Shown: piece after piece, positions 2,613-19,086 of the stretch
Layout of the letters: every line of letters begins with the position of its first letter
How positions within the stretch are numbered: position 1 is the stretch's first letter
From: a virus
IMG/VR virus record: IMGVR_UViG_3300007512_000232
Coordinates: 1 to 21,556 of that record
DNA: 21,556 bases
Direction: 5' to 3' (one strand)
The notes under the pieces: generated by a model
What the model saw: the letters and a program-made list of their open reading frames with translations, nothing else
What the model was told of the DNA's origin: nothing
Databases searched by the model: none
Position numbers and translations under genes: made by a program

Positions 2613-2688
2613 AAAAGGTTTTGGGCGAAAAAATTCTGGCGAAAAATTTGAGAATCGAATATACTTGATGGTGCTAAACCCCAATCTC

Positions 2689-2742
2689 AAAAAAGGGGGC
2701 CCGGTTGGCCCATCAATGGCCCCCTGGCCCCCACCGGGCCCC
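2689..2742 (-). terminator. Rho-independent terminator-like hairpin
   Basis: A perfect 10-bp GC-rich stem pairs 2696-2705 with 2733-2742 (ACCGGGCCCC and its complement). On the minus strand it is followed by CTTTTTT (complement of 2689-2695). The 27-base loop contains further GGCC self-complementary parts. No gene lies directly upstream on the minus strand, so it ends either read-through transcription or an untranslated RNA, just before the late promoter. Confidence 0.65.
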
Positions 2743-3100
2743 TCATAAACTTTTCGGTGTTGCACCCCTCTAAGAGAAATCAGAAGGTTCTTAGAATGCC
2801 CTCACGCCGCCCCCACACACAATACCTCACAGGTTGATTCTAAGAGGACTGTGATACGTCTAAGATTCCTCTGAGATGTCTTAGAGATGTCTATGCGATG
2901 TCATGGGGTATATACGTTATCTATATTTTACACTATGATACCTCAGAAAAATGTCAGATATATCTTAGGTGGCAATATTCAAATATATTTTCAATTATAT
3001 GCTCAATGTCATATGGAAATATATACGATATTGGCCAGCACGCATGACGACCTGGTGCCTCGATACCCTCTGATACATTTCTGAGTATTTCAATATAAAT

Positions 3101-3162
3101 TAAAAAGGCCCCCCTCACATCAGCAGAGAACCCTACGAATAGGTGCCGATATGAGGGGGGCC
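3101..3162 (-). terminator. Terminator-like hairpin, possibly bidirectional
   Basis: Positions 3107-3120 pair with 3149-3162 through 14 positions with one mismatch, dominated by a GGCCCCCC/GGGGGGCC run. On the minus strand the stem is followed by TTTTTAATTT, a reasonable terminator tail. On the plus strand it is followed by ATTTTG, a weaker one. The 28-base loop holds a small CCTA/TAGG hairpin, so this could instead be part of a structured RNA. Confidence 0.55.
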
Positions 3163-3219
3163 ATTTTGTAATTGCAAATTATAATGAATTTGAGTATATC
3201 AGAGGAGGTTCAGAAGGAG

Positions 3220-3256
3220 TCCGCCGAGCCTTCGAGCAACTCGGCGGAGGCTCGGC
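3220..3256. other. Two mutually exclusive GC-rich stems
   Basis: A 9-bp perfect stem pairs 3220-3228 with 3240-3248 (TCCGCCGAG/CTCGGCGGA). An 8-bp perfect stem pairs 3223-3230 with 3249-3256 (GCCGAGCC/GGCTCGGC). The left arms overlap, so only one can form at a time. There is no T-tract after either. A nearby perfect 7-bp inverted repeat lies at 3286-3302. Function unknown. Confidence 0.45.
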
Positions 3257-3430
3257 CAAGGAAACTCAGAGAAAACTCAGAAATTATATGTGAATCACAT
3301 ATGCTATTGGAAAACGCTATCGCCTCGGGGGACTCTGAGGCTTCTCTGAGGGGTCTGTGCGTGTTCCTCACAAAAAAATCTGCGGCGTCTCTGCGGTGTC
3401 AGCTAAGACCGCTGGAGAACCCCTGAGAAA

Positions 3431-3470
3431 TCCCAATTTATCCCACTTTACCCCACCTCATACCACACTA
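3431..3470. repeat. Four tandem degenerate 10-mers
   Basis: The consecutive 10-mers are TCCCAATTTA, TCCCACTTTA, CCCCACCTCA and TACCACACTA. The first two differ at one base; the last two are diverged. The array runs straight into a plus-strand TATAAT (3469-3474). The period is close to one helical turn, as in iterons or activator sites. Confidence 0.4.
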
Positions 3471-3520
3471 TAATTGTGTTATGGAAGAACTCAGAGGCAC
3501 GCGAAGATGAAAAGGCCGCA

Positions 3521-3562
3521 AAAAACCCCCTGCTCTCCATAAAAAAAGGAAAACAGGGGGTT
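3521..3562 (-). terminator. Terminator of the uvsY-to-ParB-like operon
   Basis: AACCCCCTG at 3524-3532 pairs with CAGGGGGTT at 3554-3562. On the minus strand the stem is followed by a run of six T (complement of 3520-3525). It lies 33 bases past the stop codon of the 460-residue gene and is the natural end of the long operon. A pyrimidine-rich stretch follows on the plus strand, so it might also work in that direction. Confidence 0.75.
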
Positions 3563-3595
3563 CTTCTTCTTTCTTTCTTTCTATCTCTCTATATT

Positions 3596-4978
3596 CTACT
3601 TATTGGCACCATGAATCGGATAGGAAAATGAATCCACATCAACTTCAAATTCAACCTTGTGCCTCTTCACATACTTCTTGAAGTTATTCACAAGTTCTAT
3701 ACGACCATTGTTGCCATCACTATTGTATGACAGATCAGTCTTGGAAAAATTCTTTCTTTCCTTGTCTACCTGCCCATCTTCTTCCATCTTGCCGAGCCAA
3801 TGGAGCGTCTTCATCACGGAAGGCTTCATTCCGAGCTTATGATTGAACTTGTTCCGATGCACAAATTCCACAAACCCATCATGATAGGGCGATCCTTGGA
3901 CACCCATTGCTTCTGCAATCACATACTGAATAGGGCTGTCGATTGCAGCAGGAGTGAACGTCTTTGGATCAAAAATTCTATCCAAATACTCCTGATGAAC
4001 AGGGGTGATTCGATGGCCGTCTGCACGAAACTTAATCATGGAGGCAGCCTGCGAAATGGCATCCCAACGGCACACACGCTTTGCACCATCCGTCAGGGCA
4101 CCATGCCGGGCGCATTGCTCGTCATTGAAAAGATGCTCTGCCTGATATGCCACAAACTGCTCCTTCTTTATTCGGTCAGAGGCATTTTTGGTATGCTCAC
4201 CGGGAAGTGGCCTAAACGATCCCTGCCCTCCCTTGTGACCACTCTTTCCCCAGAGTTGAGGAAAGGTCATGCAGGCAACCAAATTCTGGGCATATGCAAA
4301 CGAACAATCATTGTACTTCTTGGAAGTTGGCTCAAACCCTACCCTTTCAAACATGGAACCAAGGATGTCAGAGCCTGTTTCGGTCGCAAGGGAACTGTCA
4401 ATGGACTCATAGAAACTTTGCATTTCCTCAAAAGTCGCAACCTCCACATACTCCACCCATACATGCGAAGGAACTTCCTTCACAACACCAAGACGTATGG
4501 ACGCAATACGACAATTTCCATTAAGAAGAAATTGATCGCCTTGGTGGCCTTCAATGATCGGATTGTCCAGGTTGCCCGTATGGTATACGTCATATCCTGT
4601 CAACGTACATATCACAAAGTCCCGACAATGCTCTGGGCCCCATTCTTCCAGATTTTCTCGTTGGGCCGACTTCAAAACTCTTTCGTCAGTCCTTCGATTT
4701 CCCGGAAACTTGGTGACACCATAGACCACCTCAATTGGTGTCTTCACCTGCCCTTTGAACAGATCGTCATAGGAGCGATTGGAAATCACCACTCCTGACG
4801 GCAACGTCTGCCCGGCGGTTTTGCTTCCACCACCACCACCACCACCACCAACTGCACCTCGGATCGGTGGTGCCGTTGCTGTTGCTGCCGTCATGAAAAA
4901 CGGCAATTCTGGTTTTTTGTTGTTATTGTCAGTCAGGAAATTAGTTTTTCCCCTTGACATTCTTTTGTTTTGTTTCAT
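3596..4978 (-). CDS. Protein with possible ParB-type N-terminal fold and polyglycine linker
   Basis: The chosen start (ATG at 4978) gives 460 residues (MKQNKRM...). It follows AAAGGA at a suitable distance, better than the in-frame starts at 5077 or 5011. After a low-complexity N-terminus and eight consecutive glycines (residues 44-51), residues about 60-200 contain LLNGNCRIASIRLG (151-164), followed by a V-x-V strand and a helix ending Y-x-x-IDS. This pattern recalls the 'GxxR' core of ParB/KorB-like domains (usually DGxHR). The C-terminal half, with several Cys and His residues, is not recognised. It is the last gene before the terminator and follows a Mom-like gene. ParB-fold proteins are known beside phage DNA-modification genes, so a role in base modification or DNA binding is possible. 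The fold call is tentative. Confidence 0.6.
   Translation of the reverse strand: MKQNKRMSRGKTNFLTDNNNKKPELPFFMTAATATAPPIRGAVGGGGGGGGSKTAGQTLPSGVVISNRSYDDLFKGQVKTPIEVVYGVTKFPGNRRTDERVLKSAQRENLEEWGPEHCRDFVICTLTGYDVYHTGNLDNPIIEGHQGDQFLLNGNCRIASIRLGVVKEVPSHVWVEYVEVATFEEMQSFYESIDSSLATETGSDILGSMFERVGFEPTSKKYNDCSFAYAQNLVACMTFPQLWGKSGHKGGQGSFRPLPGEHTKNASDRIKKEQFVAYQAEHLFNDEQCARHGALTDGAKRVCRWDAISQAASMIKFRADGHRITPVHQEYLDRIFDPKTFTPAAIDSPIQYVIAEAMGVQGSPYHDGFVEFVHRNKFNHKLGMKPSVMKTLHWLGKMEEDGQVDKERKNFSKTDLSYNSDGNNGRIELVNNFKKYVKRHKVEFEVDVDSFSYPIHGANK
4827..4850. repeat. Trinucleotide microsatellite (CCA x8)
   Basis: Eight uninterrupted CCA units on the plus strand encode the eight glycines of the neighbouring protein on the minus strand (GGT codons). 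Slippage by whole units would change linker length without breaking the frame. Confidence 0.85.
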
Positions 4979-5001
4979 GATATTTCTTTCCTTTCGTGTT
5001 T

Positions 5002-5049
5002 GAGGCAACATTGCCTCGCCTTCTTGCTTTTTTGCCTGCACAATGCAGG
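5002..5049 (-). promoter_or_regulatory. Two small hairpins in the leader of the ParB-like gene
   Basis: GAGGCA-ACAT-TGCCTC (5002-5017) and CCTGCA-CAA-TGCAGG (5035-5049) are perfect 6-bp stems in the 95-base gap before the ATG at 4978. Neither is followed by a T-tract on the minus strand, so they are not typical terminators. They could be RNA processing or stability elements. Confidence 0.35.
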
Positions 5050-5073
5050 AAAAATTCTCACAAATCAGACAAA

Positions 5074-6030
5074 TCACTCCCCTCTATTCTTTGGATAATC
5101 AAGGGGCAGTTTCGGGTTGTTCTTCAAGAGCAGTTTTCTCAGACGCTTGGTTTCCTTCTTTCCTCTTCCCATCACATATACATACTTATGCTTCGGTGCA
5201 GCAATGCGTTTTTTACAGGCAGCCTTTTTGTCCTTGGCCATCTGTTTCAATTTGACGGCAACTTCGACTGGAATGGCACTCCAATTGACCTTGTTCTTGG
5301 GAGTGCGCCATTCTGGTTTCCATTCATATCCCAGTTCTTTGGCATAGCGGACGAAACTGGATCGCTCTGAAAATGCCTTGTCTCCCTTCCATCCTTTTCC
5401 CTCAATGAAATACTGGTGCTTTGTGCCCGATGTCTGCCCCAAATATGCCCATGAACATGCCTGATATATGGTCCCCAATTCCTTTGCATCTGGGTCCGAA
5501 TAGGCAGTAAAGAATCTGAACTCTGTGTGCTTCACCATCCATCGAATTGCCTCCATGATGATGTGAGATCCCAGGTTCTTGGGTCCAAAAGAAATGCAGG
5601 CACCACGCGCAATGAGTTTTTCCTTGTCTCGCATATCCTTTCCCAGCAGGTTGGAAAACGCATTCGGAGTTGCCATGATGATGACGCCAGATAACACACG
5701 GGGCTTCCCTGGAACATTCAAATACCATGCAAAGCGATGTGTGAGCCATGTGGGCATTTTGCCCAGCCACTCATGGCGTTCGATGAATTGAACGAGTTGT
5801 CTGCACTTGGCCTTGTCCGTCTTGGGAACGAACTCAAACTCAAAATCAGATGTGCGAAGAGCATCGGCTTCTTCTTGTGTAAGATTGGCATCCTTCAAAT
5901 CTTGCTCACGATTGACATCTCGGATATGCCCCTGCCAACACTTGTCTCCGTCATACTTGTCGAAGCGTTCATGCGGAGGGATATATCCTGTATGGGCATT
6001 TTCGTCTTCCATGAATTTCAATAGAGACAT
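5074..6030 (-). CDS. Mom-like GNAT-fold protein, putative DNA base modification
   Basis: This gene encodes 318 residues; the ATG at 6030 follows AAGGGA, four bases after the gp46 stop. Residues about 75-230 resemble the acyltransferase-like Mom family of phages: HEWLG (86-90), a hydrophobic strand SGVIIMATPN (114-123), LIARGA (139-144), PKNLGS (150-155) and the characteristic YSDPDAKELGTIYQACSW (177-194) with AYLG at 195-198. The C-terminus is strongly basic, with PKHKYVYVMG (279-288) and a KKETKRLRK tail that could bind DNA. In phage Mu, Mom modifies adenine so that host restriction enzymes cannot cut. The match is by remembered motif pattern, not a search. A different GNAT substrate (protein or small molecule) is the main alternative. 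It is probably co-transcribed with gp46. Confidence 0.6.
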   Translation of the reverse strand: MSLLKFMEDENAHTGYIPPHERFDKYDGDKCWQGHIRDVNREQDLKDANLTQEEADALRTSDFEFEFVPKTDKAKCRQLVQFIERHEWLGKMPTWLTHRFAWYLNVPGKPRVLSGVIIMATPNAFSNLLGKDMRDKEKLIARGACISFGPKNLGSHIIMEAIRWMVKHTEFRFFTAYSDPDAKELGTIYQACSWAYLGQTSGTKHQYFIEGKGWKGDKAFSERSSFVRYAKELGYEWKPEWRTPKNKVNWSAIPVEVAVKLKQMAKDKKAACKKRIAAPKHKYVYVMGRGKKETKRLRKLLLKNNPKLPLDYPKNRGE

Positions 6031-6034
6031 TCAT

Positions 6035-7753
6035 TTATCCCTTCGACGAGAAACCGCGAACCTTCTCAAACTTCAGCGTATTGTCAAAGCGGTCAATCAA
6101 GTCCACCTTATGTGAAATCACAAAAACGTTCGTGTCCTGTGACTGCTTGAAAAGCAGCTTGCCCATGACCTCATCGGCACCAATGGCATCAAGACTTCCA
6201 TCGAACACTTCATCCAATATCAACAGATTGGTATTCACACTATTCTTCAACTCGGCAATCTTTCGCCATGTGAACAGCAGAGCCAAATCAATGCGTGCCT
6301 TCTCTCCTTCTGAAAAAGACGCATATGTGAATTCGTCCAAGTGTCGTGACTTGATGGTTTCATTGAAAGTCTCGTCTATCTCAAACTTCACGAAAAAATC
6401 CAAGTCCTGTAGATGTTGATTCACCTGGGCATTGATGATGGGCAGATAGTTCTCAATGATCTTGGCTTTGATGCCGGAATCCTTCAGGAGTTCATATGCC
6501 ACATCATGGGTTTTCTTAGTTCCACTCAATGCCATCTGGGAAATTTCCAATTCTTCCAATTCGCCCTCAATTTCCTTTAGCACCTGGGCCCTATCTCCCA
6601 TGTCCGTTTCTGCAATGGCATCTTCGATGTCTTCAATTTCTTGTTTGGTTGTGACCTGAGATTTCTTCATGGCAACAAGGCTGGCTGAAACCTTATTGAG
6701 TGAATCACGATGCTCTGCGTATTCGGTTTCCATTATGTGCAGGGCATCCATGTCTTCGTCGATTGTCCCTATTGTGCCCATGAGTGATTTGATGGCATCC
6801 TGTAGTTCTTTCTCTTTGCTCCCCTTTGTGGAAATCATGCCATCGCGAAACGTTGCATCAATGTCCTGTTCGCAGGTAGGGCAATTGGAGTTGTCCTCAA
6901 AGAATTTGAGTTCCTTCTTGACCTTGTTCTTGTTCTTCTGCAAGTCCCTGAATATCTCATCTGCCTGCTTCTTTTTTGACTCCAATGGGGTCTTTTTGGA
7001 ATTGATGGATGCCTCCAGAAGCTCACATTTCGCTTCTAAGGCACTTAGTTTTTTCTCCCCTACCCCAACCTCCACTTGTGCCTTTCTCAGACTTATTTGC
7101 TTCTTTTTTAATTCTTCTTCGCGTTCCTTCTTTGATGCGCTGATATTGGATTCTTGGAGTGATTTCTTCTCCTCTACTAGCCCTATACGCGAGTTGGTGT
7201 CCTTGATGTCCGTCTTGAGTTCTGACAATTTCCCTTTCAGCAAAACGTTCATATCCGAGAAAATCTCAATGTCCAAGACATCCTCTACCACCTTGCGCCT
7301 ATCCGCCGGAGTCATCTGCATGAACGAATCGTAACGCGCACCGAGAATGACCACAGAACAAAAACTCTTGTAGTTCATCTTGAGAATGGATGTCTCAAAG
7401 TGATTCTGGAAATCCTTTGCACTCGCATTCTTGTCAAGTGCCATGTCATTACACGATATGTCAAAGACGGCAGGTTTCAATCCACGACGAACCGTGTAGT
7501 TTTTCTTGCCAATGGAAAACTTCAATTCGACTACGCAATCCTTCTGGTTCACGCTATTCACCAATGCAGGCTTATTGATGTTGCGATATGCCTTGCCGAA
7601 TAGTGCAAATGTCAATGCGTCCAACAGGGTAGACTTGCCGCTTCCGTTCTTGCCAATAATCAGCGTGTTCTTCTTGCTATTCAAATTGTATTCTGTAAAC
7701 GTGTTTCCACTCGAAAGAAAATTCTTGTATTTGAGTGTTTTAAATACGATCAA
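6035..7753 (-). CDS. 46: gp46, SbcC/Rad50-like ATPase subunit of recombination nuclease
   Basis: This gene encodes 572 residues. It has the N-terminal Walker A GKNGSGKST (34-42) and a central coiled coil (about 170-430) interrupted by a zinc-hook CPTC (291-294). The ABC signature SFSEGEKAR lies at 479-487, and Walker B LLILDEVFDGS (510-520) is followed by a switch His (ISHK, 546-549). With gp47 it forms the Mre11/Rad50-like complex that resects DNA ends and degrades host DNA in T4. T4 gp46 has a similar length. The start is a TTG at 7753, with AAGGAGG seven bases before it. The preceding gene is pyrB rather than gp47, so the usual adjacency of the two subunits is broken. Confidence 0.97.
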   Translation of the reverse strand: MIVFKTLKYKNFLSSGNTFTEYNLNSKKNTLIIGKNGSGKSTLLDALTFALFGKAYRNINKPALVNSVNQKDCVVELKFSIGKKNYTVRRGLKPAVFDISCNDMALDKNASAKDFQNHFETSILKMNYKSFCSVVILGARYDSFMQMTPADRRKVVEDVLDIEIFSDMNVLLKGKLSELKTDIKDTNSRIGLVEEKKSLQESNISASKKEREEELKKKQISLRKAQVEVGVGEKKLSALEAKCELLEASINSKKTPLESKKKQADEIFRDLQKNKNKVKKELKFFEDNSNCPTCEQDIDATFRDGMISTKGSKEKELQDAIKSLMGTIGTIDEDMDALHIMETEYAEHRDSLNKVSASLVAMKKSQVTTKQEIEDIEDAIAETDMGDRAQVLKEIEGELEELEISQMALSGTKKTHDVAYELLKDSGIKAKIIENYLPIINAQVNQHLQDLDFFVKFEIDETFNETIKSRHLDEFTYASFSEGEKARIDLALLFTWRKIAELKNSVNTNLLILDEVFDGSLDAIGADEVMGKLLFKQSQDTNVFVISHKVDLIDRFDNTLKFEKVRGFSSKG

Positions 7754-7774
7754 TTCTCTTCCTCCTTATTTGTC

Positions 7775-8734
7775 TTATTGGTTCAAAATAAAATCAGTAT
7801 CACTCAACAACATGACGAGCAGGGCCATACGAATATATAGGCCGTTCTCTACCTGTCTGAAATATGCCGCTCTCGGGTCATTGTCCACTTCGGGCAACAA
7901 TTCATTTACCCTTGGAAGTGGATGAAGAATTCGTGCATCGGGTTTCATCAGTTTCAATAAATCAGCATCAACACGATACTCGGCTTGCCTATGATATTTC
8001 TGATACAACGCAAAATCGTTTTGGTCGAATCGTTCCTTCTGTAACCGTGTCTGATATATCACATCGACCTTTGGTGCAACATCTTTCAGGTCTGCACTAA
8101 TGGTCAAGGGAATATCTTTTTCGGCAACATGGAGCAGGAGTTCTCGCTTCAGCTTGACGAACTCAGGAGATACCAAATACAGATGACCAATGTCCTTGTA
8201 TTGTGCCAAGAGATATAGCAAAGAATGAATGGTCCGACTGTGTGCCAAGTCACCAACCAATGCAATGCTCTTTCCATTCACTCCACCACATTCTCGGCGT
8301 ATGGTATACAGGTCAATGAGTGCCTGTGTCGGATGCTGGCCCTCTCCATCCCCGGCATTGATGATGGGTGTATCCGGGCAAACCAATGCAGCCGCTTCGG
8401 CGGCACCCTCCTGTGAATGTCGAAGGACAATCACATCCGAATAGGCAGCAACCGTGCGAACAGAATCTTCAAGCCGTTCTCCCTTTGCTGCCGAAGAGAA
8501 ATTTGTTGCGCTCTCTGTGGAGATAACATCCCCGCCCAACTTTTTCATTGCTGCCTCAAACGAAAATCGTGTGCGAGTGGACGGTTCATAGAAAAGCGTT
8601 GACATGAGAAACCCTGAGTTTCTGAGCATGGGAATCGGATTGTCTCGTATCTTGTCTGTCACCTCAAAGATTCGCTTTAGTGTTTTCTTGTCAAATTGCT
8701 GTGCCTTCAAAACGTGTTTCATGTCTTCTCTCAT
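7775..8734 (-). CDS. pyrB: Aspartate carbamoyltransferase catalytic chain
   Basis: This gene encodes 319 residues with ATG at 8734 after AAAGGA; a second ATG four codons on is possible. The enzyme joins carbamoyl phosphate and aspartate to carbamoyl aspartate, the committed step of pyrimidine synthesis. All classical active-site residues are visible, almost in E. coli numbering: S52-T53-R54-T55 in FYEPSTRTR, K84, R105 (LRHSQEGAA), H134 and Q137 (GQHPTQ), R167, R230 and Q232 (TRLQKER), and L273-P274 (HPLPR). The length matches PyrB (about 310 residues). No PyrI regulatory subunit is in the window, so the product is probably an unregulated trimer. It sits 16 bases after gp47 and 21 bases before gp46, in the replication operon, and would feed pyrimidine supply during infection. 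Ornithine carbamoyltransferase is excluded by the HPTQ and TRLQKER motifs. Confidence 0.96.
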   Translation of the reverse strand: MREDMKHVLKAQQFDKKTLKRIFEVTDKIRDNPIPMLRNSGFLMSTLFYEPSTRTRFSFEAAMKKLGGDVISTESATNFSSAAKGERLEDSVRTVAAYSDVIVLRHSQEGAAEAAALVCPDTPIINAGDGEGQHPTQALIDLYTIRRECGGVNGKSIALVGDLAHSRTIHSLLYLLAQYKDIGHLYLVSPEFVKLKRELLLHVAEKDIPLTISADLKDVAPKVDVIYQTRLQKERFDQNDFALYQKYHRQAEYRVDADLLKLMKPDARILHPLPRVNELLPEVDNDPRAAYFRQVENGLYIRMALLVMLLSDTDFILNQ

Positions 8735-8750
8735 TATAACGATTTCCTTT

Positions 8751-9797
8751 TTATGCGTTTGAAATTGCCTCTTCAAATAACGATCTCATCAACCCCTTGA
8801 CCTCATCCTTATTGTCATAGGGCGCTTGCTCCACATAGTCATTCAGAATTTCAAGCGTGGATTTTGATTCGATATGCTCTAGTGCCACATCATCACTATT
8901 CAATACGTCCGTATTGTCAATGATTTGTAAATGCCAAGGGTCTGCCGCTTCCATCTCTATGACGAACTTGTCGAAGATATACTGGTCATTTATTTCATTT
9001 GCAATAACCTTGACTGCCCTTCGTGTATACTCCGAGAAGTCAACCTTCCCGGCAAGAAATTCATCCTCTACATCTGCATCATAGAACACCTTGGAAAACA
9101 TCTTGAGTGGATTGGGCACAAATTCCAATTCGAGCGTGTCTGTATCGAACACATGGAATCCACGCTCTTCTCCATAGTCAATCCATGTCTGTTCAAATGG
9201 GCTACCCAAATACCACACGTTGTCTATATGTGACCGTGTGTGAAAATGCCCGGAAAACACCATGTCGAATCGCCCGAAGACTTTTCTGTCCATGCCATCC
9301 ATTGACACCGAACCCTTTGCAAACGGAAACCCAACAAGATTCAAATGACCAAAGATAATCTTGGCCCGTGAGTTTTTGATGCACTTGATGGTGTCGTCCT
9401 CGTTTCCCGAATTAATCCAAGGCACCATGAGAACGTTCAGACCATCGAAAGAAACTTCGGTTGCCTCTTCATATACGTCAATGCCATCATTGAACAGGCA
9501 GTCCATTGAATTGACACGATTGGTATTCTTGTAGTAGGTGTCATGGTTGCCAATGATAATGGAAAGGTCATACTCGTATCGCATTTTGTCAATGACCTTC
9601 TTGAACCGATGCAATGTCTTGTAACTAATCCACTTGCGCCTGTCCGTCACATCTCCAAGATGGATAATGGACTTAATCTTGTGCTTCTCCAAATACGGAA
9701 AGAATTGCTCATACCAAAACCTCTCTTGATACGCCGCAAAGGTATCGCTGTCTCCGCGAATCCCTGCATGAGTATCTGTCACCAATGCGATTTTCAT
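8751..9797 (-). CDS. 47: gp47, SbcD/Mre11-like nuclease subunit
   Basis: This gene encodes 348 residues starting MKIALVTDTHAG. The ATG at 9797 is preferred over that at 9806 because GGAGG is nine bases upstream of it and directly abuts the earlier one. Metallophosphoesterase motifs are in order: DTH (8-10), GD (48-49), GNHD (83-86), GH (150-151) and GHFH (183-186). With gp46 it makes the exonuclease used for recombination-dependent replication and host DNA degradation. The start lies one base beyond the gp55 stop codon, so translation is likely coupled. pyrB follows after 16 bases. Confidence 0.96.
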   Translation of the reverse strand: MKIALVTDTHAGIRGDSDTFAAYQERFWYEQFFPYLEKHKIKSIIHLGDVTDRRKWISYKTLHRFKKVIDKMRYEYDLSIIIGNHDTYYKNTNRVNSMDCLFNDGIDVYEEATEVSFDGLNVLMVPWINSGNEDDTIKCIKNSRAKIIFGHLNLVGFPFAKGSVSMDGMDRKVFGRFDMVFSGHFHTRSHIDNVWYLGSPFEQTWIDYGEERGFHVFDTDTLELEFVPNPLKMFSKVFYDADVEDEFLAGKVDFSEYTRRAVKVIANEINDQYIFDKFVIEMEAADPWHLQIIDNTDVLNSDDVALEHIESKSTLEILNDYVEQAPYDNKDEVKGLMRSLFEEAISNA

Positions 9798-9798
9798 A

Positions 9799-10410
9799 TT
9801 ACACATCCTCCGGCTTCACGTTTGTTGCATACTGTAGAAGGTTGTTCGCTGCCACCGCTGCCTTCTTTTTCTTTTTAACTCCTCGCTTATGTTTAATTTC
9901 TTTTTTCTTTTGTACAGAATCCTCAAAGGTTCCAATAAACTCACTCATATTGTCATATAATTTTGTAAATCCAATACTGGTGGCTCCGTTCTTTTGATGT
10001 TCGTTGTTATGTTCGTTTAATATTTCTATTATTTGAGAATTTTCTAATGATTTATATTTGACATAAAGCTGCTTCTTTTCTTTTTGTATTCTTCGCAAGA
10101 ACGCATAATATATAATTTGAGTAAAATAGGCAAATGGATTCTTTGACTTTTCTGGATCAAAATTATGAATATACTGAATGCAATTTTCTATGCCATCTGA
10201 AATCATGTCTTCTCGAAATGCATAATTAATGAAATTTGATTTATAAGAGAGCCTGTTGGCAATGCTCATAAAGATTTTTCCAATGTCATCGGGAACTGTT
10301 GGCAGTTCCTTTCCTGCCTCTTTGGCTTCTTTTGTTGCAGCCTTAAATTCAATCATATATTGAAGAAATTGTTTGTTGTCTACATAATGTTCTGGTTTCT
10401 CCCTGCTCAT
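9799..10410 (-). CDS. 55: gp55, RNA polymerase sigma factor for late transcription
   Basis: This gene encodes 203 residues (T4 gp55 has 185). The N-terminal EHYVDNKQFLQ and the block FREDMISDGIENCIQYIHNFDPEKSKNPFAYFTQIIYYAFLRRIQKEKK (about 65-113) match the sigma region 2-like core of gp55. That core directs host polymerase to TATAAATA late promoters, and several exact copies are in this window. The C-terminus is lysine-rich, KRGVKKKKK. The ATG overlaps the uvsW stop (ATGA) and follows AGGGAG. Its place in an operon with a sigma-70-type promoter fits a middle-to-late switch. Confidence 0.95.
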   Translation of the reverse strand: MSREKPEHYVDNKQFLQYMIEFKAATKEAKEAGKELPTVPDDIGKIFMSIANRLSYKSNFINYAFREDMISDGIENCIQYIHNFDPEKSKNPFAYFTQIIYYAFLRRIQKEKKQLYVKYKSLENSQIIEILNEHNNEHQKNGATSIGFTKLYDNMSEFIGTFEDSVQKKKEIKHKRGVKKKKKAAVAANNLLQYATNVKPEDV

Positions 10411-11909
10411 ACAAGACTCCCTTTATTTTTTGATGCTGTTGCTTTTGGTAATTTTACGTTATATGATTTTACCTTGAACTTCTCTGATTTGTAGATGTCG
10501 AACCTCTCTTGGTAGTGACGAAGAGCAAAGTTTCTTGTCTTTCGGCCACACGACAGGTCATCTACAATATCATACAGGATTGCCTGTTCGTCCTCGTCCT
10601 CCCCCAACCTTCTCAATGCTCGCCCAATGCTCTGCAATGTTCTGATGCGCGACTTGCCGGGATGAACAAAGACCACATTGTTGAGTCGTTTGATGTTGAT
10701 ACCCGTAGAGTAGACACCAACGGATGCAATGATGATTGCATTTTCTTCTTGTTCTACCTGCGAGCGAACTGCCTCCCGGTCGTTGACATTCGTACCCCCA
10801 TGCACAAAAAAGACCTTTCGACCATCAATGTTTATCATGTCGAACAACGGGACACCATGCTTTTCTATATAGTTGAACAAGACGAGCGTGTTTCCTTCAA
10901 GACTCAGAACCAGATTCTTGATGAACCTGTTTCGCGAATCGCTGCCTACAAGATAATCAATTTCCTCTTGGTATTTTAGTTTGGACGACACCTTCTCTTC
11001 GTGTTTTAATATAATTGCCTTGACAATGAAATCCGAAAGCACCTTTTCGTCAATGAGCTTCTTGGTTCCAATGACCTTTCGGACTGGCCCGAGCAACCCT
11101 TCGATGACCAATTTGTTTGTCTGCATTCCATCCAAGGTTCCTGTCGTGCCGAAACGATATTTGACATTGGGTGTCTTTGTCAGAATACCCATGAGCGATT
11201 TGGCTTTTACTCCATGACACTCATCGACCACCACCATTCCGAACTGTTCAAAATAATCCTTGCGGAGACGAAAGAGCGACTGCCATGTCGAAATCACAAT
11301 AGGGCATTCGGTTTCCTTTGGTCGGCCCGACATGATTTGATGAATGCCAATATCCGAAGGCATATTATAGTCGGCAAAGTCCTGGGACATCTGTGCCACT
11401 AATGATGTAGTCGGAACAATGATAAGAATCTTCTTGTTCTGTGCCTCCATATAGAACCGAGTGAGCAGATAAATCATAAGGCTCTTGCCGGAACCCGTAG
11501 GCGAAAGCAAGAGCATCCTCCGCTTTCGGACTGCTGCCACAAACGCATCCACTTGGTAATTTCTTGGTGTGTATTTGGAAGGAATCCCCAGAGTTTCAAT
11601 GAACTCGACTGCCTCATGGACAGAAAAGTTCTCGTCTGCATCAGATTCTACGTCTTCATACTCTACAACATAATCTCGCTCTTCGGCAAATGCATTGATA
11701 TATGACACCAGCCCTGCATAGATGGTTCCGTCCTGTATGTTAAAAAGTCTAATTTTTCCATCCCATGTGCCATGCCTATAGGCCGGCATGAACCGATAGC
11801 CCGGAACCTCAAATGTGAAATGGTCTGACAATTCACGGAGGGCAGAGCGTTCGTCTGAGCGGACACGAAGATAGACTTCGTTCAGTTTCTGGACTTTGAG
11901 TATATCCAT
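10407..11909 (-). CDS. uvsW: UvsW, ATP-dependent DNA/RNA-DNA helicase
   Basis: The product has 500 residues from ATG at 11909 (MDILKVQ). The frame is open further to a GTG at 11960, but T4 UvsW also begins MDI and the upstream part overlaps uvsY. The N-terminal substrate-recognition domain (about 10-100) contains PAYRHGTWDGKIRLF. Superfamily 2 helicase motifs follow: SPTGSGKS (136-143), IIVPTTSL (163-170), DECH (229-232), TTGT (255-258), and QSIGRALRR (426-434). UvsW unwinds branched DNA and R-loops and helps the shift from origin- to recombination-dependent replication. The ribosome binding site is weak, so expression may depend on coupling to uvsY 17 bases upstream. Confidence 0.96.
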   Translation of the reverse strand: MDILKVQKLNEVYLRVRSDERSALRELSDHFTFEVPGYRFMPAYRHGTWDGKIRLFNIQDGTIYAGLVSYINAFAEERDYVVEYEDVESDADENFSVHEAVEFIETLGIPSKYTPRNYQVDAFVAAVRKRRMLLLSPTGSGKSLMIYLLTRFYMEAQNKKILIIVPTTSLVAQMSQDFADYNMPSDIGIHQIMSGRPKETECPIVISTWQSLFRLRKDYFEQFGMVVVDECHGVKAKSLMGILTKTPNVKYRFGTTGTLDGMQTNKLVIEGLLGPVRKVIGTKKLIDEKVLSDFIVKAIILKHEEKVSSKLKYQEEIDYLVGSDSRNRFIKNLVLSLEGNTLVLFNYIEKHGVPLFDMINIDGRKVFFVHGGTNVNDREAVRSQVEQEENAIIIASVGVYSTGINIKRLNNVVFVHPGKSRIRTLQSIGRALRRLGEDEDEQAILYDIVDDLSCGRKTRNFALRHYQERFDIYKSEKFKVKSYNVKLPKATASKNKGSLV

Positions 11910-11926
11910 GTGGGTGTGTAGTTCTT

Positions 11927-12391
11927 TTAACCGTTGATTCCGTTCGTGAACTGCTTCCACTTGATTGCATTGGTGATCTGAAAACTGCGATTGTTGATGC
12001 TACTGATAATAGAATTCAACAGGGCACACTTTTCTCGCTGGTCGCCAATCATGACCAAGTTTTGAATAACATCCGGGTCGCCTTCGACATACTTTGGAAC
12101 ATCTCCCTTGAGAATCTTGAGAGTCGGCGGTTTCCAATTTCGTTCTTCAAGGTCTTCTTCACACATCTTCCCAGAGTAATATTCGTGCTTGTCCTTCTCC
12201 AGCATCTTGTGGGTGAACATCATTCGGTTGAGGATGCGATTCTCATCGTTCATAATTTTCATGTATTTGGAATGTAGCTGGGGAATCTTGAGGCTTTCAA
12301 GGTCAAGCTCCAGATCGTCAATCTTGGAATCCACATCCCAGAGTTCATGAATCATTTCTAACGTGAATGGTTTTTCTTCAAGAGTTGTCAT
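11927..12391 (-). CDS. uvsY: UvsY, recombination mediator
   Basis: This gene encodes 154 residues (T4 UvsY has 137). It loads UvsX recombinase on gp32-coated single-stranded DNA. Supporting features are the acidic N-terminal helix (MIHELWDVDSKIDDLELD), the central HSKYMKIMNDENRILNRM and HEYYSGKM segments, and the position immediately before uvsW, as in T4. It is the first gene after a consensus sigma-70 promoter and a leader of about 110 bases. The ribosome binding site (GAAAGG, 11-12 bases before ATG) is moderate. Confidence 0.93.
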   Translation of the reverse strand: MTTLEEKPFTLEMIHELWDVDSKIDDLELDLESLKIPQLHSKYMKIMNDENRILNRMMFTHKMLEKDKHEYYSGKMCEEDLEERNWKPPTLKILKGDVPKYVEGDPDVIQNLVMIGDQREKCALLNSIISSINNRSFQITNAIKWKQFTNGING

Positions 12392-12439
12392 GTTTTAAAT
12401 ATACCTTTCATTTTCAATATAATATATGTGAAATTGCTA

Positions 12440-12488
12440 TTTTATTTAAAACTCCAGTTTTATTTAAAATCCAGCCCCAGCCTGGAGT
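12440..12488 (-). promoter_or_regulatory. Structured leader of the uvsY operon, possible attenuator
   Basis: Two adjacent 17-18-base near-copies lie at 12440-12457 and 12458-12474 (TTTTATTTAAAA then CTCCAG or TCCAG). On the minus-strand RNA, ACTCCAG (12488-12482) can pair with CTGGAGT (12457-12451), followed by TTTAAA. Alternatively CCAG can pair with the nearer CTGG, followed by ATTTTAAA. The two options compete. This looks like a weak attenuator or RNA switch. Confidence 0.35.
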
Positions 12489-12507
12489 CCTCTCACACAT
12501 GGGGCCT

Positions 12508-12535
12508 ATTATAATCACCAAACAAGAGGTGTCAA
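12508..12535 (-). promoter_or_regulatory. Consensus sigma-70 promoter for the uvsY operon
   Basis: On the minus strand, TTGACA (12535-12530) and TATAAT (12513-12508) are both perfect, with a 16-base spacer. The expected start of transcription is near 12501, about 110 bases before the uvsY ATG. It lies just after the gp3-position gene and separates the late structural block from the replication block. Use by unmodified host polymerase is inferred. Confidence 0.85.
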
Positions 12536-12543
12536 GCCCAAAC

Positions 12544-13047
12544 TCAAATTTTTTCGTAGGTATATGTCAGATACCTGAAGGTTGCCGATGCCTTGATTCC
12601 TTCAATATCGGCAGATGCCGAATCAAATAAAACTTCTGATAAATTAGTTGGAAATAGGTCTTTAAATATAATTTGATAATTGGGGTTCATATTTGAATTC
12701 AGGACGGTGAGCGTTGCATCTGAATAAATGTGCTTTTCCTTTTGGGCGTCATATTCTGGATATTCGTGAGGGAAGCCCAGGCCAGCCATCCAGTCATAGA
12801 GTTCCTTCCAATTCTGAAGGTCTTCGTCCACAAGAAACTGAATGTTCAATGGGTCAAAAACAAGGGTGTCTCCGGGGACTGCCGTCTGAAGAAATGGGGT
12901 AGGCTGGGGTGCCTCACCAAGAGTGATTCCGGGGAGGTTTACCGAAGTCAGAAACCAATTGGTGTTCGGAAGCACTTCAATATAAAATCGAAACCCTACA
13001 GGAGATAGGTAGTTGATGTTGTCTGGTGAATTGAATGATTTTGCCAT
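12544..13047 (-). CDS. Tail-tube-like protein in the gp3 (tail completion) position
   Basis: This gene encodes 167 residues. The sequence SPVGFRFYIEVLPNTNWFLTSVNLPGITLG (15-44), PGDTLVFDPLNIQFLVDEDLQNWKELYDWM and the C-terminal TFRYLTYTYEK resemble the tube-fold tail proteins of T4-like phages (gp19/gp54/gp3 group). In marine T4-like genomes the gene between gp23 and uvsY is usually annotated gp3, the tail completion protein, about 170 residues long. The ATG at 13047 follows AGGAGG by eight bases. A degenerate late octamer (CCTAAATA, 13068-13075) is just upstream. Which tail role it has cannot be settled from sequence alone. Confidence 0.8.
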   Translation of the reverse strand: MAKSFNSPDNINYLSPVGFRFYIEVLPNTNWFLTSVNLPGITLGEAPQPTPFLQTAVPGDTLVFDPLNIQFLVDEDLQNWKELYDWMAGLGFPHEYPEYDAQKEKHIYSDATLTVLNSNMNPNYQIIFKDLFPTNLSEVLFDSASADIEGIKASATFRYLTYTYEKI

Positions 13048-13086
13048 GCACGGTGCCTCCTATTGTGTATTTAGGCGACGGGCGGC

Positions 13087-13138
13087 CGAAAAGAAACGAG
13101 GAGTGTCTCTCTGTATGAGAAAGACACCCCTCGATTTC
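13087..13138 (-). terminator. Terminator after gp23
   Basis: CGAGG and GTGTCT (13097-13108) pair with AGACAC and CCTCG (13122-13133) with one mismatch, flanked by GAAA/TTTC pairs. On the minus strand the stem runs into TTTCTTTTC. It follows the gp23 stop by about 25 bases. The plus strand also has a T-rich tail, so it may act in both directions. Confidence 0.75.
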
Positions 13139-13161
13139 TTTTTTTATACTACTTGGTATTA

Positions 13162-14505
13162 CTAGCCAGCAAGATTGTTGACTGCAAATGCCCTGTAGTA
13201 TCGGTTGTTCTGACCAATCGCCACGGTGGAGATGCCAGTTGTCGTTGCAAATGGATTCACACCGACACCGTAGCGGGTCTTGAATCCAATCTTGGGTTGG
13301 AATGTTTCCTCGCCAATTGCACGGACCATCTGGAGTGGAACGTATGGGCAGTAGAACATTCCTGCGTCATATGGCGACGATCCCTTATATCCGACACACA
13401 CAAAGTCGTCTGCGGTGAAGGAGTAGGGGTCAATGTAGACCTTGAGTCCTGCACCAATGGTTCCGGCAAATGTGCTTCCTGTGTCGTCTACCGTGAGTGC
13501 GGCAGTCGGGTCAAGAACACCAGCCGTTGCAAGAGCAGAAGCAACATCACTTGAGCAGAGAATGAAGTTGCCCTTCCCTCGACGAGTGTTCTTTGCAATG
13601 GCATTGGCTTCTGTCTCAATCTTGTAGACAAGAGCCTTGAATCGCTCCACAAGCCAGCGACCATCAAGTGAACCAAGCCCTGCTGCATTATTACCAGAAG
13701 GTGCGGCACCTCGGGCGTCAATGGCAGGTCTGCCAGTACAACTCATGTAAATCGAGCGAACAATTTCACGATTGATTTCTGCGTTGATCTCGGTCGTGAG
13801 AATATTTGCAAGCTCAGTCTCGGCATCAAGACCATGAATTGCCTTCAAGTCCTGTGCCAGTTCTACCGAATACTCTGCCTTGAGGGCCCGAGTAACGGCA
13901 GTCACACTCGACTTGTCGATCTTGAATGACATGGAAGGAATCTGGTTGGTTGCAGCAGAGCCCCATGCCTCGCCCTTTGCTGTCGTGTTACCTGTAAGAA
14001 TACCAACATCTTCGGTTGACGCGGCATTGAACATGAGGTTGGCGTGCCCGGTGCCATTCCAGACAGGCTTGTTTGCGCCTGTGTTTGGATTGGCAGCCGA
14101 ATAACCAGACTTGGCTTCGTCGTAGAATGCATTTGCGCCATCGGCATCGCCTTCGTTCCGCGTGCCATATGTTGGGCGAAGTGCAAAAATCAGACCCGTC
14201 GGGCCGGACATTGGCTGGACACCCATGACATCAAATGCAATGAGATTAGGAGCAGTTCGTCGCACAAGGCTGATAAGAACAGGGTCAAACTTGGCAACAT
14301 CGCCCGTGACTGTTTCTGGGGCAAGAGATTCGCCAAGAAGACTTGTCGAACCCGCTCCTGTTACTGATGCTTGTTCTTGAAGAGCTATCTCTTGCTGCTC
14401 AAGCATGTGTGCTGTGACAACCTTTCGGTAATTATTCTTGATCTCAGGAAGATCCGTATGGTCAAGAACTGGTTGCCATTTGTTAACTAGCTGTTCATTC
14501 AACAT
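13162..14505 (-). CDS. 23: gp23, major capsid protein
   Basis: This gene encodes 447 residues (T4 521). It is recognisable by PNLIAFDVMGVQPMSGPTGLIFALR (near 86-110), YSVELAQDLKAIHGLDAETELANIL, EINREIVRSI, GYKGSSPYDAGMFYCPYVPL and GFKTRYGVGVNPFA. It assembles the hexamers of the head. The N-terminal propeptide probably ends at L57-G-E59|S60, which aligns with the T4 cut after Glu65 and fits gp21 specificity. AAGGAG precedes the ATG, and a late promoter octamer lies 60 bases upstream. A terminator follows, consistent with a very abundant monocistronic late message. Confidence 0.97.
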   Translation of the reverse strand: MLNEQLVNKWQPVLDHTDLPEIKNNYRKVVTAHMLEQQEIALQEQASVTGAGSTSLLGESLAPETVTGDVAKFDPVLISLVRRTAPNLIAFDVMGVQPMSGPTGLIFALRPTYGTRNEGDADGANAFYDEAKSGYSAANPNTGANKPVWNGTGHANLMFNAASTEDVGILTGNTTAKGEAWGSAATNQIPSMSFKIDKSSVTAVTRALKAEYSVELAQDLKAIHGLDAETELANILTTEINAEINREIVRSIYMSCTGRPAIDARGAAPSGNNAAGLGSLDGRWLVERFKALVYKIETEANAIAKNTRRGKGNFILCSSDVASALATAGVLDPTAALTVDDTGSTFAGTIGAGLKVYIDPYSFTADDFVCVGYKGSSPYDAGMFYCPYVPLQMVRAIGEETFQPKIGFKTRYGVGVNPFATTTGISTVAIGQNNRYYRAFAVNNLAG

Positions 14506-14564
14506 GTGTTTACTCCTTAAAAAATCGTTGAATTAGATAATCTCTTCAACAGTATCCTAATGTT

Positions 14565-14572
14565 TATTTATA
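14565..14572 (-). promoter_or_regulatory. Late promoter of gp23 (TATAAATA)
   Basis: There is an exact minus-strand TATAAATA 60 bases before the gp23 ATG and just past the gp22 stop codon. Confidence 0.85.
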
Positions 14573-18543: not shown

Positions 18544-19086
18544 TTAGGTTGTTTGTGTCTTGTCGTCTGCAATCTGCCAGTAATCATATTGCCATGTGAC
18601 GGCAAACTCTTCGACTGCATCATTTTGATCCCATCCTAATTCAATGGCTGCAACCGAGGAAGGCCAACAATTAATCATGGTAATCATTTTGGCAACTTCA
18701 CCCTCTTTCTTGTAATGCGTCACCTGTGCATCAACCTGATAATCATTTCCTGCAATAGTCCTCAAGTTTTCGCCATGTCCCTGGATGGAATTCATCCAAT
18801 TGACAAGCCCGGCATGAATGGCAAAGTCTTCGTCATTAATGACAGTCGTTGTCCATTCGGCAAACGTTCGATTGCCTGCCAACTTAATATTCCTACCAAA
18901 GTAGGGAACTTCAACAAGACCGATGTCTGCTCCGGGAATCTGGGCACCCTTGCACATAAAAGTCATTTTCTGACCCGCTTCGCCGGGATTTACTGCACCC
19001 GGAAAGGGAATCGTGACCTCATATAGATTGGGTCGGGCACCCTGGCCAACAAGCTCGGCTCTGAAATTATTAATTGAAAAAGGCAT
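18544..19086 (-). CDS. 19: gp19, tail tube protein
   Basis: This gene encodes 180 residues (T4 163). FRAELVGQGARPNLYEVTIPFPG at the N-terminus, FMCKGAQIPGADIGLVEVPYFGRNIKLAGNRTFAEWTTTVINDEDF, and the C-terminal VTWQYDYWQI are typical of the T4 tail tube family. It polymerises into the inner tube surrounded by gp18. AAGGAG precedes the ATG. Its gene follows the sheath gene with a 48-base gap holding a near-consensus late octamer. Confidence 0.95.
   Translation of the reverse strand: MPFSINNFRAELVGQGARPNLYEVTIPFPGAVNPGEAGQKMTFMCKGAQIPGADIGLVEVPYFGRNIKLAGNRTFAEWTTTVINDEDFAIHAGLVNWMNSIQGHGENLRTIAGNDYQVDAQVTHYKKEGEVAKMITMINCWPSSVAAIELGWDQNDAVEEFAVTWQYDYWQIADDKTQTT

Follow-up and report, generated by a model that had tools for sequence, protein, structure and literature searches.

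The window analysed here comprises an entire IMG/VR record (21,556 bases) and covers only a fragment of a phage genome. On its minus strand it carries pyrB, a gene for the catalytic chain of aspartate carbamoyltransferase (ATCase), as an open frame of 319 amino acids from ATG to TAA (7775..8734). Upstream lies gp47, encoding an SbcD-like nuclease subunit (8751..9806, minus strand; PHROG 100, E = 2e-97), and downstream gp46, encoding an SbcC-like subunit and listed with a TTG start (6035..7753, minus strand; PHROG 77, E = 6e-161). The flanking gaps on the same strand are short, with 16 nt between gp47 and pyrB (8735..8750) and 21 nt between pyrB and gp46 (7754..7774), and each includes a Shine–Dalgarno-like stretch (AAAGGA and AAGGAGG, respectively). 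A first-pass annotation had described a complete pyrB between gp47 and gp46, tightly spaced, with its own ribosome binding site and every classical catalytic residue; the frame, the gaps, the PHROG assignments of the neighbours and the profile match and site residues given below bear this description out.

Farther upstream on the minus strand are genes for a gp55-like late sigma factor (9799..10410; PHROG), the UvsW helicase (10407..11960; Pfam and PHROG) and the UvsY recombination mediator (11927..12391; Pfam and PHROG), the last being the first gene of the operon proposed below. Adjoining gp46, two genes downstream of pyrB, is a gene for a Mom-like DNA modification protein (5074-6030, minus strand; PHROG 1384 and Pfam Mom); an ORF of the same length and with a similar start lies near gp46 in two relatives (L004 and L006). 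The window further includes the terminase C terminus, gp18, gp19 (18544-19086), gp20, gp21, gp22 and gp23, and a second tail-tube-like gene between gp23 and uvsY (12544-13047, minus strand; PHROG 45). With gp18–gp23, gp46/47, gp55, UvsW and UvsY all present, the window has the gene content of a T4-like myovirus, where the T4 names are assigned from PHROG and Pfam labels and common usage. Its major capsid protein, gp23, is about 53% identical to those of Synechococcus phage S-CREM1 and the Methylophilales phages Melnitz, the closest isolates among the matches listed. The N termini of two minus-strand ORFs (330-569 and 566-2551) may resemble the sequence that targets internal proteins of T4 to the capsid.

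The PyrB protein matches the NCBIfam equivalog TIGR00670 over its full length (304.8 bits against a cut-off of 236.95) and both Pfam carbamoyltransferase domains, and in profile comparisons its ATCase scores are far above those for the ornithine and putrescine carbamoyltransferase models. Residues compared at the carbamoyl-phosphate and aspartate sites are kept throughout (S52, T53, R54, T55, S81, K84, R105, H134, Q137, R167, R230 and P272-L273-P274); their roles follow general background on the enzyme and a study of Arabidopsis thaliana ATC (PMC7878868). An AlphaFold monomer model (mean pLDDT 91.1) has Arabidopsis ATC as its best solved structural match (Z = 44.4, r.m.s.d. 1.4 over 306 residues), which is also the top match among solved sequences (334.7 bits, 53% identity); E. 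coli PyrB matches with Z = 42.4 at 36–37% identity. The nearest cellular proteins are likewise only about 53% identical. Internal stops are absent, and dN/dS values of 0.132 against L004, 0.093 against L007 and 0.114 against L295 (with dS saturated in the latter two comparisons) indicate that pyrB is under purifying selection; gp47 and gp46 give 0.083 and 0.108 against L004. At the level of sequence, the identity of the gene as an ATCase, its intact active site and the selection on it are thus established, as are the gene order and the plant-type loop described below. The product is predicted to have ATCase activity and to form a homotrimer.

The pattern TATAAATA, which we take to be the T4 late promoter, occurs six times on the two strands of the window, compared with 0.28 expected, and none of 100 shuffles reached six. 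On the minus strand, it lies upstream of gp23 (14565..14572) and at 2605, 15894, 16768 and 20944; four of these five stand directly before virion or head-assembly genes and the fifth (2605-2612) before ORF 566-2551. The pattern is absent from 2613 to 14564, and hence from the stretch between uvsY and gp46. Upstream of uvsY is a putative sigma70 promoter with the exact pattern TTGACA-16-TATAAT (12508..12535, minus strand), the only exact match in the window at spacings of 16–18; 7 of 300 simulated windows hold one, and sigma70-like matches overall are in modest excess (24 versus 14.9 in shuffles); a pattern of this kind does not in itself demonstrate function. At the matching place in relatives, we read TTGACC-16-TATACT (L132) and TTGACA-16-TATACT (L135, in which the downstream ORF is a candidate UvsY). 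From uvsY through gp46, the listed genes overlap or are no more than 21 nt apart, so they are most simply read as a single operon, early or middle in timing. These patterns suggest that pyrB belongs to a putative host-sigma70 operon with the recombination genes, away from the late promoters, and they fit the earlier proposal of expression at the onset of DNA synthesis in so far as they point to expression with DNA-metabolism genes.

The gp47–gp46 interval and viral relatives of pyrB

The comparison of gp47–gp46 intervals that the first-pass annotation had proposed was run on 159 loci recovered by gp47 or gp46 matches, limited to the best 80 for either gene, and 145 of them have both genes on one strand; these loci are not independent (3300008624_000034, for example, is in both lists). 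The gap, its length extrapolated from BLAST ends, is below 100 nt in 87 loci, 100–500 nt in 24, 500–1500 nt in 30 and above 1500 nt in 4. Five of the 145 loci, from four contigs, have pyrB inside it (L136, L216, L217, L218 and L221), and on this count the idea that pyrB is a widespread, ordinary gene of the phage group was rejected; it is rare at this site, yet not unique among phages. The order gp47–pyrB–gp46 was read in 3300008624_000034, 3300009129_000015, 3300049899_000143 and 3300049999_000186, in the last of which gp46 is cut off by the contig end.

Relatives at 99–100% and at 90% identity have pyrB beside gp47 in other contigs; in the 90% relative, gp47 is on the same side of pyrB and an ORF of 268 amino acids separates pyrB from gp46. 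In a more distant relative (L007, PyrB 73% identical), pyrB lies elsewhere: gp47 and gp46 adjoin on the same contig (L140), with pyrB downstream. The 73% identity of pyrB between the window and L007, compared with only 46–47% for gp47 and gp46, implies that pyrB is more constrained or has moved between phages. The nearest relative without pyrB in the gap (L137, gp47 60% identical; a 4.7-kb contig, so pyrB could lie elsewhere) has in its place a gene with NUMOD3 motifs, a homing-endonuclease PHROG match and a GIY-YIG match just below the cut-off. With such a gene in the same gap, the gp47–gp46 interval looks like an insertion hot spot.

Two alignment scans of IMG/VR recovered 32 and 56 loci with PyrB relatives, together 72 contigs, so that pyrB is not a single curiosity; many of these contigs lie outside the T4-like group and a few may be host DNA. 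After leaving out partial viral PyrBs, the proteins form 42 clusters at 95% identity, and some of the contigs exceed 300 kb. In a phage collection, 35 records match PyrB, many of them resembling host DNA (L010, for example, has pyrB beside bacterial housekeeping genes); one record of 595 kb, LR756511, is apparently from a huge phage. Among chosen representatives, pyrB is often a few kilobases from a DNA polymerase, ligase or helicase gene. It lies by a T4-type RNase H and an exonuclease in L295 (62% identity), and near PhoH, a gp44-type clamp loader and a clamp-like gene (match below the cut-off) in L018 (51%). Genes for a clamp loader, DNA polymerase A and DNA ligase are near neighbours of pyrB in different phages (L018:7830-8777, L030:2221-4464 and L039:3661-4794). 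One viral PyrB relative (L040:4965-5864) has the aspartate-site arginines replaced in the automatic alignment (R248 to A and R310 to P) and is possibly a non-catalytic carbamoyltransferase.

A protein family of about 265 amino acids (23–64% identity) directly adjoins pyrB in ten diverse phage loci, which comprise 7 of the 14 representatives examined plus L038, L040 and L041 (L315:4143-4955, L319:4111-4950, L328:4135-4953, L302:4005-4832, L037:4192-4983, L009:5197-5985, L040:4131-4913, and, on the minus strand, L298:4132-4917, L041:4023-4811 and L038:4108-4917). None of seven members tested had a PHROG match and none of six a Pfam match above the cut-off, and a structure model of the protein had a low pLDDT of 45. 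Of 50 loci of the family recovered in a wider scan, 23 have pyrB within 3 kb and 27 do not; as 7 of the 14 representatives also have no such neighbour, the idea that pyrB of large phages always has this partner was rejected.

Genes related to PyrB function were also sought. The regulatory chain PyrI (PF01948) was found in 0 of 11 pyrB records, all fragments, by a search that was positive in 7 of 14 control genomes, and the large chain of carbamoyl-phosphate synthetase (CPSase) in 0 of 8, again all fragments. A Pfam scan of 40 proteins (PyrB and 39 ORFs chosen from the wider contigs) yielded 11 families, and apart from the two PyrB domains none belongs to pyrimidine synthesis. Since the contigs are fragments, PyrI, CPSase and other pyr genes could lie elsewhere in the genomes.

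The plant-type CP-loop and its distribution

The CP-loop of PyrB spans residues 78–86, N-F-S-S-A-A-K-G-E (8477..8503, minus strand), and F79 corresponds to F161 of Arabidopsis ATC. According to work on the plant enzyme (PMC7878868), UMP acts by blocking the active site, with no need of a partner chain, and contacts S162, A164, A165, R136, T137, R187, H215, R248, R310, V250 and the PLP loop; the F161A substitution abolishes this inhibition, a second role of F161 is in subunit timing, and the abstract calls the UMP loop exclusively conserved in plants. The phage loop is identical to that of Arabidopsis at F161, S162, S163, A164, A165 and K166. Across 20 compared sites (UMP contacts, loop and active-site positions), 19 are identical, the sole difference being V250, which is I169 in the phage; at the same sites E. 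coli matches Arabidopsis at 15, human CAD at 15 and Pyrococcus at 16, and none of the three has the Phe. Each of the six distinct PyrBs in the T4-like clade has the loop Phe, even where identity falls to about 50%. Sister phages vary at A164T (L004 and L007) and A165I (L018 and L019), so together with the V250 difference, the affinity for UMP may differ. On these residues, we predict that the phage ATCase is inhibited directly by UMP through its plant-type CP-loop.

The Arabidopsis enzyme (PDB 6YPO, 6YS6 and 6YW9) is thus 53% identical to the phage protein and shares its F-S-S-A-A-K loop; it works without a regulatory chain, and none was found in the 11 partial phage records. It differs in being a chloroplast enzyme with a transit peptide, whereas the phage gene sits within a recombination cluster and has Ile for V250. 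E. coli PyrB has the same fold, but its loop is T-S-L-G-K-K, without the Phe (the row comes from OR845269, a record filed as phage whose DNA is E. coli-like), and it is controlled through PyrI, which was found in 0 of the 11 partial phage records. The first-pass annotation had suggested that, without a regulatory chain, the enzyme could escape CTP feedback. The enzyme may escape CTP; escape from pyrimidine feedback overall is not supported, as the loop is of the plant type and keeps F79. The closest solved enzyme is blocked by UMP without a partner, so a missing PyrI does not imply feedback escape, and the regulatory part of the earlier interpretation is doubtful.

The Phe is present in 2 of the 80 nearest cellular loci (L044 and L046) and in 15 of 72 viral loci, 10 of them T4-like and five outside this group (L020, L306, L307, L326 and L332). 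The pattern F-S-S-A-x-K-G-E occurs in 14 of 279 genomes of the phylum to which a Pacearchaeota genome belongs, in 16 of 286 for a Saccharibacteria genome and in 7 of 140 for a Myxococcales genome, with genomes without pyrB included in these denominators; the matches lie inside carbamoyltransferase genes in 7, 10 and 1 cases, two of which are only distantly related. Exact F-S-S-A-A-K loops are present in L362, L368 and L369 of the Saccharibacteria-phylum set. Across all IMG/VR contigs, a longer pattern occurs in seven, all already in the T4-like pyrB group. The cellular rows comprise the 80 nearest and another 37 retrieved through the loop pattern (of which 18 are carbamoyltransferases, L357 and L375 being distant at 33% and 39%), so the Phe is over-represented among them. 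Beyond plants, then, a loop with Phe is present in Patescibacteria, in DPANN archaea and in a number of phages, including one T4-like clade. Given its presence in Patescibacteria and archaea, it may serve subunit timing rather than UMP sensing.

In a tree built without the loop columns (45 rows chosen from 91, with most F-type cellular rows having been fetched by the loop), all six rows from T4-like phages fall into a single clade (99/94). With moderate support (91/95), 20 of 22 F-type rows group together with the Y-type L047, joining the T4-like phages with F-type ATCases of Arabidopsis, Patescibacteria and archaea; the tree leaves the order within the group unsettled, and the argument that the plant loop shows a plant origin of the phage gene was therefore rejected. 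One F-type cellular protein (L369) falls outside the group, with the virus L020. Another tree, from which proteins below 230 amino acids (including L042, L043 and L303) and L010 were left out beforehand and L332, L334, L357, L375 and L016 (clustered with the window) were dropped, needs five changes between virus and cell labels, four forced by starred branches; two of the five concern L021 and L024, both possibly host DNA. Somewhat short of even odds, in our estimate, is a broader proposal: that UMP-sensing, regulator-free ATCases form one family beyond plants, in Patescibacteria, DPANN archaea and a clade of marine T4-like phages, and that these phages use theirs as a self-braking pyrimidine valve expressed with recombination genes.

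Proposed role of the phage ATCase

To our knowledge, phages have seldom been described as taking part in de novo pyrimidine synthesis. In the open-licence literature, as far as its available text goes (including PMC6008428, PMC8545117 and PMC4751646) and without proof of absence, the reports of phage ATCase are the cyanophage claims and one EC 2.1.3.2 count in a stromatolite virome table. Published accounts describe pyrBI or carbamoyltransferase as pyrimidine genes of Synechococcus phages MS29 and S-SZBM1 (PMC10436341 and PMC9146016). The 'pyrBI' of MS29 (OP807803, W02:C1:172645-173337) matches Carbam_trans_N of the TobZ/NodU type, a family unrelated to ATCase, and the whole MS29 record holds no OTCace_N match; it is apparently ruled out as an ATCase by family, and the named cyanophage case that was tested is thus a different enzyme. 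S-SZBM1 is absent among the PyrB matches in the phage collection and is likened by published description only.

The best overall explanation, to which we assign a probability of roughly 0.58, is that the window encodes an early, active, homotrimeric and UMP-braked ATCase that makes pyrimidines more readily available. Its catalytic chains would assemble as a homotrimer and join carbamoyl phosphate to aspartate, the reaction that commits the cell to making pyrimidines de novo; the carbamoyl phosphate and the later pyr enzymes would be those of the host. The host-sigma70 promoter before uvsY would drive pyrB together with uvsY, uvsW, gp55, gp47 and gp46, and with such cotranscription the enzyme is expected to appear with DNA replication and recombination, not with virion genes. 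It would bypass the CTP/UTP control of a PyrI-dependent host ATCase and could replace the host enzyme if the infected cell shuts down its pyr genes. The UMP brake would let it run while UMP is drained into dNTPs and slow it as UMP builds up. The operon and its timing, the UMP inhibition and the benefit to the phage are all things that we infer. If the enzyme is UMP-sensitive, the phage kept a brake that one might expect to be discarded, and the loop described as plant-exclusive is more widespread. The phage ATCase may then act as a valve under regulation and not as one without a brake.

The main benefit could instead be replacement, that is, supplying the pyr step most repressed in an infected host, against nucleotide limitation and not for flux control. 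In Lactococcus, a 36-fold repression of pyrB is reported at 15 min after infection by phage sk1, the top of the range for pyr genes (PMC10986495), and a prophage system of B. thuringiensis causes a strong drop in pyrB (PMC9700832). Such repression gives a reason to carry this step, although in other phages and hosts, and CPSase was not found beside phage pyrB (0 of 8 records). Both hosts, however, are Firmicutes with no link to this marine phage, and we consider replacement as the main benefit rather unlikely; it is in any case compatible with the UMP-braked enzyme that we prefer.

A trimer without a regulatory chain could also be nucleotide-insensitive and force pyrimidine flux up, as proposed for the chlorovirus PBCV-1. 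Its A169R, the known viral ATCase, is a virus-encoded catalytic chain like the phage protein; it is described as having no regulatory subunit, with early expression, presumed insensitivity to CTP and UTP and a two-fold rise in ATCase activity in infected extracts (PMC10142491; chloroviruses are also treated in PMC3602175). PBCV-1 differs in being a eukaryotic algal virus, the best match of A169R is an algal host gene, and the likeness is by description only. The lack of PyrI in the 11 partial records and the variation at loop positions 164 and 165 among sister phages would fit a feedback-free enzyme, but the phage keeps the Phe on which UMP inhibition depends in Arabidopsis, together with nearly every other site compared, and plant-type ATCases work without a regulatory chain. 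We regard this reading as unlikely.

That the gene encodes a carbamoyltransferase acting on a different substrate or serving a different purpose, such as DNA or metabolite modification near the Mom-like gene (5074-6030) two genes downstream, is very improbable: one cyanophage does carry an unrelated carbamoyltransferase of the TobZ/NodU kind, but here the aspartate-binding R167 and R230 and the PLP loop are kept, ATCase models score far above the ornithine and putrescine models, and in L007 pyrB has different neighbours. Although some PyrB matches in the phage collection are host DNA, as in L010, the chance that misassembly or host DNA explains the gene is negligible, and this idea is refuted by identical junctions in contigs of other samples; the 90% relative with gp47 on the same side and the identity of only about 53% to the nearest cellular proteins also speak against it.
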